A stretch of 30,240 nt of DNA, taken from NCBI GenBank assembly GCA_028097645.1, contig JAOHEU010000008.1, positions 1 through 30,240 of the forward strand. Direction: 5' to 3'. Source of the stretch: Candidatus Pelagibacter sp. (lineage in GTDB: Bacteria > Pseudomonadota > Alphaproteobacteria > Pelagibacterales > Pelagibacteraceae). A model generated the notes under the pieces. That model did not search any database and was not told the origin of the DNA. It saw only the letters and a program-made list of their open reading frames with translations. Below are positions 7,696-15,901 of the stretch, piece by piece. A program made the position numbers and the translations under genes. The stretch's first letter is position 1. The number at the start of each line of letters is the position of its first letter.

Positions 7696-8949
7696 ATGAA
7701 AAATAAGTATTCAATATTTTCGTTAATAAAAAATGCACTCTCATATCATGAGAATTGGCAACAAGCATGGAAGGATCCTACACCAAAAAAAGAATATGAT
7801 GCAGTTATAGTTGGTGGTGGTGGTCATGGTTTAGCAACTGCTTATTATTTAGCAAAAAAACATAATATGAAAAATATTGCTGTTGTTGAAAAAGGATGGA
7901 TTGGCGGAGGGAATACAGGAAGAAACACCACAATAATTAGATCAAATTATTTGTGGGACGCAAGTGCGGGACTTTATGATCATGCATTAAAAATTTGGGA
8001 GGGTTTATCTCAAGAGCTTAACTATAATGTGATGTTTAGCCAAAGAGGAGTTATGAATCTAGCTCATAACCTTCAAGATGTTAGAGATTTAAAAAGAAGA
8101 ACACATGCTAATAGATTAAATGGTATTGATGCCGTGTATTTAAGTACCGAAGAGGTTAAGAAATTTTGTCCTATCATTAATACATCGCCAGATATTAGAT
8201 ATCCTGTTCTAGGGGGAACATTACAACGAAGAGCTGGTACCGCTAGACATGATGCTGTTGCCTGGGGTTACGCTAGAGGAGCAGATGAAATGGGCGTAGA
8301 TATAATTCAAAATTGTGAAGTTAAAGGAATAAAAAGAAATGGTGATAGTGTTGAGGGCATTGAAACAACAAAAGGTTTTATAAAAACAAAAAAAATTGGT
8401 GTTGTAGCTGCTGGTCATTCAAGTGTTATAGCAAACATGGCTGGTATAAGATTGCCATTAGAAAGTAAACCTTTACAAGCTTTAGTTTCGGAGCCTGTAA
8501 AACCAATAATTGATACTGTAGTAATGTCTAATGCTGTTCATGCATATGTTAGTCAATCAGATAAGGGTGAATTAGTAATTGGTGCAGGAACAGATGATTA
8601 TATTTCTTATTCTCAAAAAGGAAGTCATCAAATAGTCGAAGGTACCTTAAATGCTATTTTAGAACTCTACCCTATTTTTAGTAGAATGAGAATGTTGAGA
8701 CAATGGGGAGGAATTGTAGATATTTGTCCAGATGCTAGTCCAATTTTAAGCAAGACTACTGTTAAAGGGTTATATTTTAATTGTGGTTGGGGAACTGGTG
8801 GATTTAAAGCAACACCAGGATCAGGAGATTTATTCGCGCATACTATTGCTAACGATGAACCTCATAAATTAAATGCTGCATTCAATTTAAATAGATTTGT
8901 AAGTGGTGATCTTGTTGATGAGCATGGTGCTGCTGCGGTTGCTCATTAA
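7696..8949 (+). CDS. soxB: heterotetrameric sarcosine oxidase, beta subunit
   Basis: Flavoprotein subunit that oxidises sarcosine (N-methylglycine). The methyl group goes on to tetrahydrofolate in the alpha subunit, and oxygen is reduced to peroxide. Residues 35-52 hold the FAD-binding dinucleotide fold ([11 protein letters not shown]), followed by [16 protein letters not shown], typical of the family. H185 in [11 protein letters not shown] matches the histidine that carries the covalent FMN in characterised tetrameric enzymes. A C-terminal [13 protein letters not shown] segment completes the FAD site. The length, 417 residues, is normal. It is the first gene of soxBDAG and shares one base with soxD (TAATG). 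In marine alphaproteobacteria this operon is linked to catabolism of methylated amines such as glycine betaine. Confidence 0.97.
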
Positions 8950-9224
8950 TGTTTATCATAAATTGTCCATACTGTGGTGAAAGAGATCAACAGGAATTTA
9001 AAGCTGGGGGTGAGGCCCACATAGAAAGACCAAAACAACCAACCGAATTAAGCGATGATGAGTGGGCAGAGTATCTTTTCATGAGGAAAAATATTAAAGG
9101 AGTTCAATTTGAAAGATGGAATCACGCACATGGTTGTAGAAAATGGTTTAATATGGTGAGAGACACATCAAACGATGAAATAAAATTAATTTATAAAATG
9201 GGTGAAAAACCTCCTTCAGAATAA
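8949..9224 (+). CDS. soxD: sarcosine oxidase, delta subunit (zinc-binding)
   Basis: Small structural subunit of the tetrameric enzyme. C6 and C9 (CPYCG), H59 and C63 (NHAHGC) match the four zinc ligands known in this family, at the same positions as in characterised delta subunits as I recall them. GGEAHIERP and the W-rich middle are also conserved. At 91 residues the length is normal. Its start overlaps the soxB stop by one base, and soxA begins one base after its own stop, so translation is probably coupled through the operon. Confidence 0.96.
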   Translation: MFIINCPYCGERDQQEFKAGGEAHIERPKQPTELSDDEWAEYLFMRKNIKGVQFERWNHAHGCRKWFNMVRDTSNDEIKLIYKMGEKPPSE

Positions 9225-9225
9225 T

Positions 9226-12200
9226 ATGCTAACAAATTTAAGAGTTCAATCGAGTGAATTTATAGATGAAACTATTAGAGTTTCTTTTAAATTTAATGGA
9301 AAAACTTACTATGGATTCAAAGGAGACACATTAGCTTCTGCTCTGCTCGCTAATGATATTCATTTAGTTGGTAGAAGTTTTAAATATCATAGACCAAGAG
9401 GCATAATGACTGCTGGTTCTGAAGAGCCAAACGCAATCGTTCAGGTAAATGATAAAACTAATAGAACAGAACCAAATGTAAGAGCTACAGAATTAGAGAT
9501 TTATGAAGGACTAGAAGCATCTAGCCAAAATTGTTGGCCGAGTGTAAATTTTGATATTGGAGGAATAAATAATGCAATTTCTGCATTTTTACCTGCTGGT
9601 TTTTATTACAAAACTTTTATGTGGCCAGCAAGCTTTTGGGAGAAATATGAATTTTTTATTAGGCACTCTGCAGGTTTAGGTAAATCCCCAACTGATAAAG
9701 ACCCAGATATTTACGATCACAGATATGTTCATTATGATGTGTTAGTAGTTGGAGCTGGGATATCTGGAATTTTAGCAGCAAAAAATGCTGCAAAAAATAA
9801 TTTTAAAACTTTATTGGTTGATGAAAAAAATGAATTAGGTGGCTCTACTATTTATCAAAATGGAGAATTTAATAAAATTGAAAATCGAAGTTCTTCAGAT
9901 TGGATTAAAAAAGAAATTGATGAATTGAATAATATTAAAAATCTAGAAGTTAAAACTAGAACAAGTGTTGCTGCATATCATGGATATAACTATTTATTAG
10001 CGAGAGAAAATTTAACTGATCATTTAGAAAAAAATGACAAACAAGGTAAAATTAGACAAAGACTATTAAAGATCAGAGCTAAAAAAGTTATTCTTGCAAC
10101 AGGAGCATTGGAAAGACCACTTATCTTTAATAATAATGACAGACCTGGGATTATGCTTTCTTCTGCTATAAAAAAATATGCTAATTTTTATGGAGTAGTT
10201 TCGGGTAAAAAAAATGTTTTTTTTACCAATAATGATAGTGCTTATGAAAGTGCGTTATGTTTATATAATAAAGGCATTAAAGTTGAGGCTATTATAGATA
10301 TCAGAGAAAAATCAGACTCAATTATTGTAAAAGCAGTTGAGAATGTAGGTATAAAAATTCATTGGTCTCACACAATTGTAGATACAAAAGGCTATAAAAG
10401 ATTAAATTCTATATCAGCAATGAAACTATCTAATGACGGTTTGTCTGTAACTGGAAATAAAATAGATATTTCTTGTGATTGCTTGGGTGTAGCTGGAGGT
10501 TGGACCCCTGCTGTTCATTTATTTACTCAATCAGGTGGAAAACTAAAATTTGACGAAAACAATAAAGTTTTTTTACCAAATAAATATCCATCTGATCAAT
10601 TAAGTGTTGGATCTTGTAATGGGGATTTTAATTTAAATGAAATTATCAATAATTTATCAACTAATTTAAAAGAATTTTTAAAAATTGATAAAACAGATTT
10701 TGATAATTTATCTATAGAAAGTGAAGGGGAAAATTCAAAAAGGAATATTTGGTTATTACCATCAGATAAACCAATAGGAAAAACAAAACCATTTGTAGAT
10801 TACCAAAACGATGCAACTGCAAAAGATATTAAACTAGCTCTAAGAGAGGGCTTTAGATCAATAGAGCATGTAAAAAGATACACAACAACAGGTATGGGAA
10901 CTGATCAAGGAAAACTAGGGAATATGCATGCATTAGGGATTATTGCAGACACAGCTGGTGTTAAAATGGGAGAACTTGGAACTACAACATTTAGACCACC
11001 TTATACACCACTAACCTTTGGAACTATTGTTGGACGTAATGTTGGAGAATATTTTGATATATTTAGAAGAACGCCTATGAATGATTGGCATAAGGATAAT
11101 AATGCTAAATTTGAAAATGTGGGTCAATGGAAGAGAGCTTGGTACTATCCTGTTGATGGTGAAAGTATGCATGAAGCTGTTCAAAGGGAAAGTATAGCTG
11201 CAAGGGAAAGTGCCGGAATATTAGATGCATCCACTTTAGGTAAAATTGATATTCAAGGAAGTGATGCTTCAGAATTTTTAAATAGAGTTTATACAAATGC
11301 TTGGTCAAAACTTGGTATAGGTAAATGTAGATACGGTTTAATGCTTAATGAAGACGGTATGGTTTATGACGATGGTGTCACTACAAGACTTGGAGAAAAT
11401 CATTATTTAATGACAACAACAACTGGTGGTGCCGCTAATGTTTTAGGTAAACTTGAAGATTATCTACAAACTGAATGGCCTGAACTCGATGTTTATTTAA
11501 CTTCTGTCACTGATCATTACGCTACAGCAAGTATTTGTGGTCCAAACAGTAAGAAAATATTAAATAAAATTATTCCGGATCTAGATTTATCTGAAGAAAG
11601 TTTTCCTCATATGTCGTTTAAGAATGCTCAAATTGGAAATATCAAATGTAGAATAATGAGAATTAGTTTTACCGGGGAACATAGTTACGAAATCAATGTT
11701 CAAGCAAATTATGGAGGAGCTCTTTGGGAAAAATGCATGGAAGCTGGAAAAGAATTTAATATCACTCCATATGGAACAGAAACTATGCACTTATTAAGAG
11801 CTGAAAAAGGATTTATTATTGTAGGTCAGGATACTGATGGAACTATGACTCCTATTGATCTTCAAATGGATTGGATAGTAAGTAAAAAGAAATACGATTT
11901 CATTGGTAAGAGATCACTTTACAGATCAGATACTATGAAGGAGGAAAGAAAACAATTGGTGGGACTTTTAACTGATGACCCAAGTATAGTTTTAGAAGAA
12001 GGAGCTCAAATAGTTTCTGAACTTAATCAATCGCCAGTTAACATGCTTGGACACGTAACTTCAAGCTACTATAGCCCAAATTTAAAAAAATCTATTGCTC
12101 TTGCAGTTGTTAGAAGTGGAAAAAATATGATGGGTAAAAAATTATTTATACCCATGGAAGATAAAACAATTAATGTAACAGTTGCTAATCCAATTTTTTT

Positions 12201-12231
12201 TGACGCAGAAAATAAGAGGTTGAATGCTTAA
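9226..12231 (+). CDS. soxA: sarcosine oxidase, alpha subunit
   Basis: Large subunit (1001 residues) that binds NAD and carries the folate-dependent half of the reaction, forming 5,10-methylene-tetrahydrofolate. Domains in order: an N-terminal ferredoxin-like fold without cluster cysteines (GDTLASALLAN, SFKYHRPRG, about residues 15-70); a Rossmann fold (DVLVVGAGISG, near residue 171) with the oxidoreductase core; and a C-terminal aminomethyltransferase (GcvT-like) domain from about residue 640 (MHEAVQRES, AGILDAS). The ATG at 9226 is chosen because it starts one base after the soxD stop. An in-frame GTG at 9202 would overlap soxD and add 8 residues with no better ribosome site. The stop overlaps soxG by 8 bases. 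Confidence 0.97.
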   Translation: MLTNLRVQSSEFIDETIRVSFKFNGKTYYGFKGDTLASALLANDIHLVGRSFKYHRPRGIMTAGSEEPNAIVQVNDKTNRTEPNVRATELEIYEGLEASSQNCWPSVNFDIGGINNAISAFLPAGFYYKTFMWPASFWEKYEFFIRHSAGLGKSPTDKDPDIYDHRYVHYDVLVVGAGISGILAAKNAAKNNFKTLLVDEKNELGGSTIYQNGEFNKIENRSSSDWIKKEIDELNNIKNLEVKTRTSVAAYHGYNYLLARENLTDHLEKNDKQGKIRQRLLKIRAKKVILATGALERPLIFNNNDRPGIMLSSAIKKYANFYGVVSGKKNVFFTNNDSAYESALCLYNKGIKVEAIIDIREKSDSIIVKAVENVGIKIHWSHTIVDTKGYKRLNSISAMKLSNDGLSVTGNKIDISCDCLGVAGGWTPAVHLFTQSGGKLKFDENNKVFLPNKYPSDQLSVGSCNGDFNLNEIINNLSTNLKEFLKIDKTDFDNLSIESEGENSKRNIWLLPSDKPIGKTKPFVDYQNDATAKDIKLALREGFRSIEHVKRYTTTGMGTDQGKLGNMHALGIIADTAGVKMGELGTTTFRPPYTPLTFGTIVGRNVGEYFDIFRRTPMNDWHKDNNAKFENVGQWKRAWYYPVDGESMHEAVQRESIAARESAGILDASTLGKIDIQGSDASEFLNRVYTNAWSKLGIGKCRYGLMLNEDGMVYDDGVTTRLGENHYLMTTTTGGAANVLGKLEDYLQTEWPELDVYLTSVTDHYATASICGPNSKKILNKIIPDLDLSEESFPHMSFKNAQIGNIKCRIMRISFTGEHSYEINVQANYGGALWEKCMEAGKEFNITPYGTETMHLLRAEKGFIIVGQDTDGTMTPIDLQMDWIVSKKKYDFIGKRSLYRSDTMKEERKQLVGLLTDDPSIVLEEGAQIVSELNQSPVNMLGHVTSSYYSPNLKKSIALAVVRSGKNMMGKKLFIPMEDKTINVTVANPIFFDAENKRLNA

Positions 12232-12787
12232 CTACAATTCACCTATCAACAATCATATAGAATATAACGATATATCCGTTAAAGAAGTTTCCCCTATAAT
12301 GAAACTTAACCTTAGAGGAAAAAAAAGAGAATTCTTTACAACAGTAGGTAAGCAATTGGATATGATTTTACCTACAGAAGCAAATACATCTTCATCGAGC
12401 TCTAAACTTACCTCTATATGGTTAAGTCCAGATGAATGGATGATTGTATCTAACGAAAAAACTGAAAAAGATACAAATAATTACGATCTTGAAGAAAATT
12501 TATATAATAGTATTTCAAAAACTAATTTAGGTGCAGTGGTTGATGTTTCTGATCAATATGTGATGTTGGAATTAGAAGGATCAAAGGTGTATGAGTTGTT
12601 TTCTTCAGGTAGTCCGTTCAATTTTAATGAATTTAAAGAAAAAAAAGGATCCTCAACACAAACATTGTTGAATGGAATTGATGTTATAATTTTGAATAAA
12701 GGCTTAAATTCAGTAAATTTATTAGTTAGACGATCATTTTCAGAACATTTGTATTCTTGGATAAATGATAGTGCGTCAAGGTTATAA
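12224..12787 (+). CDS. soxG: sarcosine oxidase, gamma subunit
   Basis: Fourth subunit, 187 residues, with weak sequence conservation in the family. The LSPDEWMIVS motif near residues 65-75 and the later GAVVDVSDQYVMLELEGS segment are the recognisable parts and resemble a small GcvT-like fold. The ATG at 12224 lies inside the end of soxA, with AGAGG 4-5 bases upstream. Position as the last gene of soxBDAG strongly supports the call. Thirty-four bases separate it from the solute-binding protein gene, so the transport genes may be read from the same transcript. Confidence 0.92.
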   Translation: MLNYNSPINNHIEYNDISVKEVSPIMKLNLRGKKREFFTTVGKQLDMILPTEANTSSSSSKLTSIWLSPDEWMIVSNEKTEKDTNNYDLEENLYNSISKTNLGAVVDVSDQYVMLELEGSKVYELFSSGSPFNFNEFKEKKGSSTQTLLNGIDVIILNKGLNSVNLLVRRSFSEHLYSWINDSASRL

Positions 12788-12821: not shown

Positions 12822-13589
12822 ATGAAAAAACTTATCTTGCTTGCACTTATGGTGCTTTTACCCTTCTCAGTTAACGCAGACTCAAAACTAGATCAAATAT
12901 TGGCATCTGGTGAATTAAAAGTTGGAACTACAGGAGATTGGGATCCAATGACAATGAAAGACCCAGCTACCAATAAGTACAAAGGTTTTGATATTGATGT
13001 GATGAATGAATTAGCTAAAGATATGGGTGTAAAAGTCACTTTTGTTCCTACTGAGTGGAAAACTATAGTTTCAGGAATTACTTCGGGTAGATATGATATT
13101 TCAACAAGTGTAACTAAGACTGCTAAAAGAGCTGAAGTAGCTGGATTTACTTCTACCTACTACAAATATGGTACCGTGCCACTTGTGCTTAAAAAGAATT
13201 TAAGCAAATTTTCAACTTGGGATTCTCTAAATAAAAAAGGTGTTAAAATAGCAACTACATTAGGTACTTCTCAAGAACAAAAAGCTAAAGAGTTTTTTCC
13301 AAATTCTACATTGAAGTCTGTTGAAGCTCCAGCTAGAGACTTTCAAGAAGTTTTAGCAGGAAGAGCTGATGGAAATATTACTAGCTCAACGGAAGCTAAT
13401 AAACTTGTGATCAAATATCCTCAATTAGCGATTGTTCAAGATGGAGAAAAAAATCCTGCTTTTCTAGCTATGATGGTTCCAAAATCAGATACAGTTTGGA
13501 ATGAATATGTAAGCAACTGGATAGAAAAGAAAAAAAACTCTGGTTTCTTTGAAAAGTTATTATCAAAATATAATCTTAAAAGTTTATAA
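12822..13589 (+). CDS. periplasmic solute-binding protein, family 3 (amino-acid type; PheC-like)
   Basis: Secreted binding protein of an ABC importer. A signal peptide ([19 protein letters not shown]) is followed by a typical SBP_bac_3 domain: [33 protein letters not shown] and [13 protein letters not shown] with R103 at the usual ligand-arginine site. At the second ligand loop it reads [10 protein letters not shown], where amino-acid binders and cyclohexadienyl dehydratases usually have Asp (ITDATE), so the ligand may not be a standard alpha-amino acid. At 255 residues the length is normal. It is followed by a permease and preceded by soxG, so a glycine, sarcosine or betaine-related ligand is plausible but unproven. 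A PheC-type dehydratase is the alternative; the adjacent permease argues for transport. Confidence 0.85.
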
Positions 13590-13629
13590 TCAGTTAGATA
13601 TTAACAATTAATTCTCTATAATTTTAAGA

Positions 13630-14370
13630 GTGAAAAATATATTTTTTTTACTTTTATTATTTTTGCTCACTTCTTGCACAGATCAGGAATTGGGTTGGTT
13701 TATTATTTCTCCAAATAATGTTGAGGGATTAACTAATTTAAAATTCTTATTAAGTGGATTAACTACAACTATCTTTATCTCAGTGGTATCAATCATTATT
13801 TCAATGATTTTGGGTTTTATTGTTGCAGTACCCTCTTTAGCAAAAAATAAATTTTTAACTTATATTAATATAGGTTATGTGGAGATAGTAAGAGCTGTAC
13901 CATTATTGGTTTTAATTTTATGGATTTATTATGGGCTTCCAATAATGACAGGTATAAGCTTTAGTCCCTTTGTTTCTGGAATAATTGCTCTTTCAATAAG
14001 TGAAAGCGCTTTTCAAGCTGAAATTTTTAGAGCAGGAATAAATTCCATTAAAAAAGCTCAATGGGAAGCTGGAAGTTCCTTAGGCTTAACTTTTTTTAAA
14101 AGATTAAGATTTGTCATATTGCCTCAAGCGATTAAGAATATTTTACCTGCTATAGGCAATCAATTTGTTTATGTGTTAAAGATGTCTTCATTAGTTTCAA
14201 TAATAGGTATTGGTGATTTAACTAGAAAAGCAAATGAATTGGTGGTCTCTACTTATAGACCTTTAGAAATTTATACTTTCTTAATATTAGAGTATTTAGT
14301 TCTGATATTAATTGTTTCATATTTTGTAAGAAGATTAGAAAAAAAATTAAAGCAAGACACTAACAACTAA
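13630..14370 (+). CDS. amino-acid-type ABC transporter permease (HisM/GlnP family)
   Basis: Inner-membrane channel subunit of a polar amino acid ABC importer. RAVPLLVLILWIYYGLP (88-104) and the ATPase-contact loop EAGSSLGLTFFKRLRFVILPQA (from E146) are family hallmarks. Several membrane spans follow residue 38. It starts at GTG 13630; an in-frame stop at 13609 leaves no earlier ATG or GTG. Unusually, the N-terminus (FLLTSC, C16) reads as a lipoprotein signal ahead of about 20 polar residues and the first permease span; it could also be just an extra first span. No ATP-binding subunit gene lies in the window, so the ATPase must come from elsewhere. Forty bases separate it from the binding protein gene. 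Confidence 0.88.
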   Translation: MKNIFFLLLLFLLTSCTDQELGWFIISPNNVEGLTNLKFLLSGLTTTIFISVVSIIISMILGFIVAVPSLAKNKFLTYINIGYVEIVRAVPLLVLILWIYYGLPIMTGISFSPFVSGIIALSISESAFQAEIFRAGINSIKKAQWEAGSSLGLTFFKRLRFVILPQAIKNILPAIGNQFVYVLKMSSLVSIIGIGDLTRKANELVVSTYRPLEIYTFLILEYLVLILIVSYFVRRLEKKLKQDTNN

Positions 14371-14453
14371 AAAAAATTATTACGCATAACGAAAATTCCT
14401 TAGATTTAGAAATAAATGTTGAGAGAAACTATAATCATTATGTTTACAAAATT

Positions 14454-14795
14454 ATGGTTCCTGTATTTTTAATATTATGTGTTGCTTGGTTTGTGCTATG
14501 GATACCAACAAAATATTTTGAAGCAAGACTTGCAACTTCAATGGTCGCTCTTTTATCTTTAATTGCATATAATTTTGTTTTTGCAAATGATATTCCAAAA
14601 TTAGAGTATCTTACAGCTTTGGATAAATTCATTTTACTATCATATATATTTTGCTGTATCCCAACTTTTATGAGTATTTGGTTCAGCAGACTTTATAAAA
14701 TAAAACAAGCTAAAATAGCAAAAGTTAACAGTAAAATTAGAATATATGGTGGATTTGTTTACTTAATCCTAACTATGCAAATATTTTATATATAA
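14454..14795 (+). CDS. pentameric ligand-gated ion channel pore domain, extracellular domain missing
   Basis: Residues 2-18 match M1 with its conserved proline (MVPVFLILCVAW). Residues 24-43 match M2 (ARLATSMVALLSLIAYNF), followed by the M2-M3 loop DIPKLEYLTALDK with the family proline and tyrosine. M3 spans 56-77 and M4 96-112. This lines up end to end with the transmembrane half of prokaryotic Cys-loop-type channels such as GLIC. The same frame is open upstream to 14364 without ATG, GTG or TTG, and that part still reads as the pre-M1 beta strand (LDLEINVERNYNHYVYK). The roughly 190-residue extracellular ligand domain is absent, and the permease gene sits where it should be. Probably a 5'-deleted remnant; a working pore-only protein started at ATG 14454 is possible. 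Confidence 0.75.
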   Translation: MVPVFLILCVAWFVLWIPTKYFEARLATSMVALLSLIAYNFVFANDIPKLEYLTALDKFILLSYIFCCIPTFMSIWFSRLYKIKQAKIAKVNSKIRIYGGFVYLILTMQIFYI

Positions 14796-14799
14796 AAAT

Positions 14800-15177
14800 A
14801 TGAATTTAAAAAATACATTCAAAAAATTTGTCTTATTAGATCTATTTTTATTAATATTAGGAATTTCTTCAATTTTTTTTGAAAATGAAACAATTATAAG
14901 TTTTAATGAAAGTGTTAGTCCAATGAGTGACATGTTTGGACTAATAATTTTATTTTATTTTATTACATTTTTGGTTTGTTTATTTTGCTTATATAAATTT
15001 AAAAAAATTGGTAAACAATTATACGCATTCTTATTTGTACTTGGAGTTATTTTGTCACTTTTAATGGGTGACTCAGCTCAAGGACCGATTTCATATGTTG
15101 TTGATGGATTAGGATGGGCAAATGCGGGAGCAATACTTGTTTTACTTTATTTTAGCCCAATTAAGAAAGAGTTTTAA
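14800..15177 (+). CDS. small four-span membrane protein of unknown function
   Basis: I do not recognise this 125-residue protein. Hydrophobic segments at about residues 9-27, 45-66, 75-90 and 99-118 suggest four membrane spans, with a loop at 28-44 that is polar and acidic (ENETIISFNESVSPMSD). The last loop holds GDSAQGP and the last span VVDGLGWANAGA. It starts 4 bases after the channel remnant stops, so the two are probably read together. The start is the first ATG after that stop. It has no cysteine cluster, catalytic motif or signal peptide beyond its first span. Confidence 0.65.
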   Translation: MNLKNTFKKFVLLDLFLLILGISSIFFENETIISFNESVSPMSDMFGLIILFYFITFLVCLFCLYKFKKIGKQLYAFLFVLGVILSLLMGDSAQGPISYVVDGLGWANAGAILVLLYFSPIKKEF

Positions 15178-15223: not shown

Positions 15224-15388
15224 ATGCAAATTTTAGGATATATTTTAATAGGACTTGGTGTATTAGACTTTCTTTTAGGAAACTTTGGTGGAATGAATCT
15301 TACAGGATTTATGGGACCCTTATCATCTTTTTCACCAATTATTTTAATAGTTGTTGGTGGTTTATTAACCAGAGTTGGTAACAAATAA
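15224..15388 (+). CDS. 54-residue hydrophobic miniprotein
   Basis: Reads from ATG 15224 to TAA 15386-15388. The first half (QILGYILIGLGVLDFLLGNFGG) and the second (SSFSPIILIVVGGLLTRVGNK) are two short membrane spans joined by a glycine-rich turn. Clean stop placement, balanced hydrophobicity and a basic C-terminus support a real gene. It ends 9 bases before the convergent nuclease gene. A longer frame on the opposite strand at 15220-15534 runs from inside the nuclease gene and is judged spurious. Function unknown; it resembles generic two-span miniproteins. Confidence 0.6.
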   Translation: MQILGYILIGLGVLDFLLGNFGGMNLTGFMGPLSSFSPIILIVVGGLLTRVGNK

Positions 15389-15397
15389 TACTTCGTT

Positions 15398-15901
15398 TTA
15401 TTTTTTTTGTGATTTTCTAAAATCCCAAGGAAATTCAAACTCAGTTTGCCATAAACCAAGTTTATTAGTTTTTGCATACTCTTCATCTTCGACAAATTTT
15501 TTCGAGTATTTTCTGTAAGCAAATGCAAACCCACTTCTAACTAAATATTTAGATAAACTTTCATCATTAACAAAACATTCTGCTAAAACTCTATTATATT
15601 GATCAGGCTTATCTTCGTTAACACATGTAACTTCATTATTACCAATTTTTTCAATTAAAACTAACTTTGACCAATATCCGCAAAATACTTTTACTTTTTC
15701 AAAAGTACATTGTTGTCTTTTTCCTCGATAATAACTCTCTGGAGTATCAATACCAGAAAATCTAATTTTTTTTCCATCTAAATGTATTGTATCTCCATCT
15801 ACCACTCTTATATCCTGGGCTTCAGCTTGATTAATATTATAAGTAAATATTAATAGACAAATACTAATAACTAAAATGGCTTTTCTTTTGTTTAAATACA
15901 T
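15398..15901 (-). CDS. secreted thermonuclease-like nuclease (SNase fold)
   Basis: Likely a calcium-dependent extracytoplasmic nuclease that could recover phosphate and nucleotides from DNA or RNA. A signal peptide (residues 1-28, ending QAEA) precedes an OB-fold SNase domain. VVDGDTI (33-39) gives the first acidic metal site. R47, D52, T53 and E55 in RFSGIDTPE keep the exact spacing of the staphylococcal R35, D40, T41 and E43. R104 in YNRVLAECF matches R87. Four cysteines (C65, C74, C93, C109) could form disulphides. GLWQTEFEFPWDFRK is a typical end of the family. Its ATG lies 38 bases inside the end of the MATE gene on the same strand, so it is the last gene of a minus-strand run. Confidence 0.9.
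   Translation of the reverse strand: MYLNKRKAILVISICLLIFTYNINQAEAQDIRVVDGDTIHLDGKKIRFSGIDTPESYYRGKRQQCTFEKVKVFCGYWSKLVLIEKIGNNEVTCVNEDKPDQYNRVLAECFVNDESLSKYLVRSGFAFAYRKYSKKFVEDEEYAKTNKLGLWQTEFEFPWDFRKSQKK

Follow-up and report, generated by a model that had tools for sequence, protein, structure and literature searches.

The 30,240-nucleotide stretch of DNA analysed here (the window) carries the 3' third of a gene for a pentameric ligand-gated ion channel (pLGIC), set directly behind the stop codon of an ABC permease gene. We consider it likely that a deletion or an illegitimate recombination left this piece as a non-functional channel remnant; that assessment covers both deletion in place and a variant in which only a 3' fragment of the gene ever arrived. 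To the right of the joint lies the nearly unchanged 3' third of a full-length channel and to the left an intact permease, and the corresponding slot in relatives carries complete channels. An earlier note on this DNA had suggested a deletion-type joint at the permease stop, and the near-identical full-length channels and the intact permease make this the best reading.

The open frame at 14364–14795 on the forward strand has 143 codons and ends with a stop at 14793–14795 (ORF table). By sequence homology and hydropathy it encodes the pLGIC transmembrane domain, M1–M4. When the frame was compared with the PDB using phmmer, the matches included 6fl9 (E 1.4e-16), 6v4a (E 1.3e-15), ELIC entries (about 1e-12) and GLIC entries (about 1e-9). 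Hydropathy gave four spans, at frame residues 30–48, 56–74, 89–107 and 125–143, and the alignment retains the prolines of M1 and of M2–M3. Pfam Neur_chan_memb scored the frame at 26.1 bits (E 1.2e-5), just below the cut-off of 28.1. Since the complete relative P0232 also falls below that cut-off, at 22.7 bits, the low score is a property of the subfamily and not a sign of decay. The PDB matches, the Neur_chan_memb profile search and the four spans all bear out the earlier identification of the frame as a pLGIC pore domain. That identification aligned M1–M4 from 14454 and read the frame upstream, to 14364, as the pre-M1 strand; the channel homology begins at codon 14367. The coordinates are collected in Table 1.

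Table 1. Features around the permease–channel joint (window positions).
Feature	Position	Strand	Basis or remark
Amino-acid-type solute-binding protein gene, SBP_bac_3	12822..13589	+	Pfam 1.3e-28; 94.9–95.7% to G222/G175/G041
ABC permease gene, BPD_transp_1, complete	13630..14370	+	Pfam 8.9e-23; relatives' 3' ends
Joint: permease stop and A-run	14364..14376	+	channel homology from codon 14367 = P0232 residue 360
3' part of pLGIC gene: end of pre-M1 strand, M1–M4, stop codon	14367..14795	+	homology
Promoter-like match TAGAAA-17-TATAAT, 10/12	14407..14435	+	promoter scan; ends 19 bases 5' of ATG 14454
M1 hydrophobic span, conserved proline	14451..14507	+	hydropathy and alignment
113-aa ORF, the longest with a conventional start codon, beginning inside M1	14454..14795	+	ORF list, hydropathy
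M2 span, pore-lining	14529..14585	+	hydropathy and alignment
M3 span	14628..14684	+	hydropathy
M4 span	14736..14792	+	hydropathy
125-aa hydrophobic ORF, cargo gene, no known family	14800..15177	+	best homologues 74% (G563), 70% (G492)
54-aa hydrophobic ORF	15224..15388	+	paralogues (41–45%) in six SAR11 channel loci examined
SNase-family nuclease gene, right border of slot	15398..15901	-	Pfam 5.4e-17; synteny

The 6fl9 and 6v4a entries are presumably sTeLIC and DeCLIC. The transmembrane domains of sTeLIC, DeCLIC, ELIC and GLIC are homologous to the window frame from pre-M1 through M3 and, in part, over M4. All four have complete extracellular domains, whereas the window has none. The counterpart of P0232 residues 1–359 is absent from the window, and searches with full-length relatives as queries (E 0.01) found no ligand-binding domain outside 14364–14792, in agreement with the earlier note. 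P0232 has an FPFD Pro-loop, and the domain that carries it is absent here; a passage of PMC4795631 gives the Pro-loop motif of the pLGIC ligand-binding domain as Y/FPxD.

The ORF and codon check likewise agreed with the earlier note that no ATG, GTG or TTG lies upstream of 14454. The first such codon in frame is ATG 14454, inside M1, and upstream of it the frame offers just ATT 14376, ATT 14379, ATA 14412 and ATT 14451. Promoter-like sites number 12 in the region, against 13.9 ± 3.9 in shuffled sequences, so the match at 14407–14435 is probably due to chance. No terminator was found in the scanned region, and a Shine–Dalgarno comparison did not distinguish ATG 14454 from other starts. As far as sequence can tell, little suggests that the pore piece is actually made.

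A profile search, with the window's own frame included in the profile, yielded 658 proteins; the best 120 of the 658 and another 120 matches were compared with the window. Among the matches listed, five full-length proteins of 499–501 aa were near-identical over the remnant. Of the 142 residues after the joint, 1 differs in P0232 and in P0234, 2 in P0202, and 4 in P0233 and in P0241, while P0231, also full-length, differs at 13. The sole P0232 difference is D for N at 14403, where P0202 has the same residue as P0232. In the genome samples searched, the closest genome-derived sequences were 67–69% identical to the window frame. Near SAR11 relatives of the channel are proteins of about 460–500 aa, and a scan of genome contigs gave six channel loci, each with a stop-to-stop frame of 495–524 aa. 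Pelagibacter pLGIC genes are on record in a passage of PMC4795631. Set against the full-length SAR11 channels (P0232, 501 aa; L001, L003–L006, L057), the remnant corresponds to their C-terminal 142 residues, 141 of them identical in P0232. The window is without three things that those channels have: the N-terminus, a usable start, and the ligand-binding domain that bears the FPFD Pro-loop.

Because only 1 of 142 residues separates the remnant from intact full-length channels, the truncation, judged from these alignments, is either very young or an assembly chimera. For the same reason an undamaged frame is hardly informative about function. The earlier note regarded such a frame as unexpected for an old pseudogene; the remnant is not an old pseudogene, and at this distance from intact channels no decay is to be expected. 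The frame has 0 stops and almost no change from intact channels, and 77 of its 1278 possible single changes would yield a stop. An old but selected pore-only gene was rejected as the main reading once full-length channels 1–4 residues away turned up.

Two observations concern the N-terminal half of the SAR11 channels themselves. Sequence searches of Pfam, NCBIfam and the PDB gave nothing for residues ~30–250 of P0232 (alignment A4) at the thresholds applied to this half, and the length of these proteins suggests that about 150 residues precede a possible ligand-binding domain.

On the left of the joint, an operon at 7696–12787 precedes the solute-binding protein gene and the permease gene. The permease ends in QDTNN-stop, much as its counterpart in G032 ends in QDGNN-stop, and this resemblance indicates that the permease is whole and that its stop is most likely native. 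Where P0232 reads ENYYDKD-LKKIITHNEN, the window reads the permease stop and then LKKIITHNEN; the bases at the joint are CTAAAAAAAATT. The frame was correctly said to begin at the permease end, since the channel homology starts at codon 14367, at the stop codon 14368–14370. The description of the two genes as fused head-on did not hold. They lie in tandem on the same strand, and there is no in-frame fusion; the channel is read in another frame, whose first 7 nt are also the last 7 of the permease gene. A frameshift that would carry translation over from permease to channel was rejected, because a shift inside the permease would meet TAA 14361–14363, which stands in the channel frame directly before 14364. 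No ATPase gene lies beside the amino-acid-type pair at 12822–14370. G041 and G032 have the same pair before the nuclease, likewise without an adjacent ATPase gene.

The DNA is of SAR11 type, and the window shares its synteny with the genomes of a single family that includes a Pelagibacteraceae record. In the compared region its proteins are 60–97% identical to those of G222, which belongs to the same genus as G387. The permease had matches in 193 genomes, and the best 20 of these 193 loci were examined for what lies between the permease and the gene pair of nuclease and MATE. This slot was empty in 15 of the 20, with the nuclease at most ~40 bases from the permease. The gap measured about 310–325 bases in G032 and G079, with an 87-aa ORF inside it in G032; other genes filled the slot in G222 and G355, and one locus ended at a contig edge. 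Complete channels abut the nuclease, in the same orientation as in the window, in G387, G640, G447 and G567. The earlier expectation of a full channel beside this transporter in related species is thus partly borne out: the channel stands at the locus in these four genomes, where it adjoins the nuclease, but a place beside the transporter was not seen. In G387 and G640, the two whose far side was readable, the island, ~15 kb in the ORF tables, reaches soxG, and the solute-binding protein and permease genes are missing there. Among the genomes searched, no relative was found with the permease and a full channel in one piece.

Since its contents vary between nothing, other genes and a complete channel, the site is, on these gene orders, a cargo slot for which the channel island is one alternative content. 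The SAR11 hypervariable regions HVR1–4 of PMC2217521 are similar, in that genes turn over locally there while the rest of the chromosome keeps its synteny. The 125-aa membrane-type ORF of the window was matched in 11 of 300 genomes, in several cases weakly, and no channel was near it in the four loci looked at.

Further truncated copies were sought in two genome samples, each out of a larger group. The family sample of 397 genomes gave 49 channel matches in 44 genomes, and the genus sample of 300 gave 29 in 26. Four of these 78 rows were common to both searches, leaving 74 distinct matches. A further draw, which contained nearly the same 300 genomes since G222 and G387 belong to one genus, is not counted separately. 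Frames shorter than 340 aa occurred in four rows representing three places: G012:C13, G525, and G079:C1, which is in both lists. The short frames of G012:C13 and G525 run into contig ends, and both were rejected as further truncated genes; in G478, too, the frame (351 aa) starts at the end of a contig. The weak match at G079:C1 was dismissed as chance and not a channel, with no full-length channel matching there at E 0.01. Thus the 74 distinct matches from the two samples include no second decapitated channel gene away from a contig end.

P0004, a 113-aa protein with the same Met start and 13 member sequences, might look like another copy of the truncated gene, but we did not accept it as one. 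At variable positions it is nearer to full-length P0231, and its longest contig has 875 bases. Many database fragment proteins share this Met start, which contig fragments or frameshifts can cause. The exact joint sequence had 0 matches in viral_contigs and none in the 101 loci compared. A phage or viral origin was rejected as well: there was no match among 50,697 phage records at E 1e-5, and none of 6 pattern-matching stretches in viral_contigs encodes a relative. The titles and abstract openings listed in the literature searches contained no published report of a natural bacterial pore-only pLGIC.

In our preferred explanation, a cargo slot of a SAR11 chromosome recently underwent a deletion or an illegitimate recombination, through which the permease stop codon became joined to codon 360 of a gene for a full-length pLGIC. 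This would have cost the gene its signal peptide, its N-terminal region and its ligand-binding domain. The joint may have formed at a short A-rich microhomology, and a short TAA/A-run common to both sides would account for a precise join that left the permease undamaged. Having neither a proper start nor an export signal, the remnant would give no working channel and would be expected to decay. Three points can be held against this reading. The undamaged, stop-free frame is what a young remnant should show but is equally compatible with use; a promoter-like match, probably due to chance, ends 19 bases before ATG 14454; and the genomes searched gave no relative with permease and full channel together, the permease being absent at the far end of the island in G387 and G640. 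Within this explanation, it is also conceivable that only a 3' channel fragment arrived, perhaps with the 125-aa and 54-aa genes, and that this lineage never had a complete channel here. The window's nuclease and MATE resemble the channel-free type (the MATE is 97% identical to that of G222 versus 38–41% to those of G387, G640, G447 and G567), and the 125-aa gene occurs away from channels, as noted above. However, complete channels sit in this very slot, in the same orientation, in four relatives, and we find such a partial arrival doubtful.

The joint could instead be an artefact, in which an assembler or single-cell amplification linked a permease fragment to the channel-bearing fragment of a related strain, so that the arrangement is present in no cell. 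The near-identical full channels in public data fit such an origin, as does the failure to find a second copy of the joint in viral_contigs or the 101 loci. A passage of PMC4795631 adds the warning that assembly errors may lie behind pLGIC fragments linked to unrelated sequence. Against an artefact, the permease retains its full C-terminus and the genes downstream lead up to the right border that is also found in relatives. The sequence shared at the joint also appears to amount to no more than a few bases or an A-run, and usual assembly k-mers are longer than this. On balance we regard an artefact as rather unlikely. A third account, in which translation from ATG 14454, or from ATT 14376/14379 just past the permease stop, yields a pore-only subunit, strikes us as very improbable. 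Such a subunit would make a cation pore, either constitutive or modulated in some other way, or would join and block full-length subunits as dup-alpha7 does. The open frame, the four spans, the retained prolines of M1 and M2–M3 and the 10/12 promoter-like match just before ATG 14454 are consistent with it, and there is a precedent in human CHRFAM7A isoform 2. A passage of PMC8998457 describes this isoform as a protein that still has the TM regions but neither the signal peptide nor any of the binding site, and reports a dominant-negative effect of dup-alpha7 in co-expression. On that description both it and the window frame are natural pLGIC gene pieces with TM regions and neither signal peptide nor binding site. 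However, CHRFAM7A is an expressed partial duplicate beside a full subunit, whereas the window remnant shows no sign of expression. The frame has hardly diverged from intact genes and hence gives no indication that it has been selected as a gene in its own right, ATG 14454 cuts into M1, and nothing comparable recurs among the 74 distinct channel matches. With promoter-like sites at shuffle level and no terminator found, the pore-only channel from ATG 14454 that the earlier note entertained was not borne out; its sole hint is a promoter-like match no commoner than in shuffled sequence.

The full-length SAR11 channels have surroundings of their own. Seven loci (L057:11439–16214, L085:1–4756, L001:4–4403, L003:1937–6420 and L004–L006) share a cassette that consists, in order, of a caspase-like protease, a trypsin-like protease whose C-terminus carries Asp-rich repeats, a 155-aa gene of no known family in divergent orientation, and the channel; the Pfam assignments Peptidase_C14 and Trypsin come from L057 only. 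More distant channels are without parts of this cassette. The cassette may serve in stress, death or defence, and the pLGIC term was absent from the papers listed on that question. The protease–channel cassette looks worthier of study than the remnant. In the same islands as the channel, L081:1379–6184 (G387) and L084:9362–14673 (G640) hold arrays of 7 and up to 8 related proteins, respectively, of about 190–235 aa with a DIRDFEIEGxSxGDSLLD-like start. Four genomes (G185, G381, G491 and G502) each have two channel-like genes about 1.5–2.5 kb apart, possibly heteromer pairs.

The remnant would represent ordinary gene loss caught early; what stands in the variable slot belongs to a gene of a known kind and not to a new kind of channel. 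It also cautions that an open frame, even one whose hydrophobic pattern is perfect, is no proof of a reduced protein that functions. Were the pore-only reading true, the locus would provide a natural experiment on whether the pore domain works without its sensor, and a subunit that leaks cations or poisons full-length channels would be a bacterial counterpart of dup-alpha7. More broadly, the pLGIC, a relative of neurotransmitter receptors, is patchy cargo in SAR11, with any match in 44 of the 397 family genomes, and is present or absent at one fixed slot. This patchy occupancy should be useful for asking what bacterial pLGICs do.
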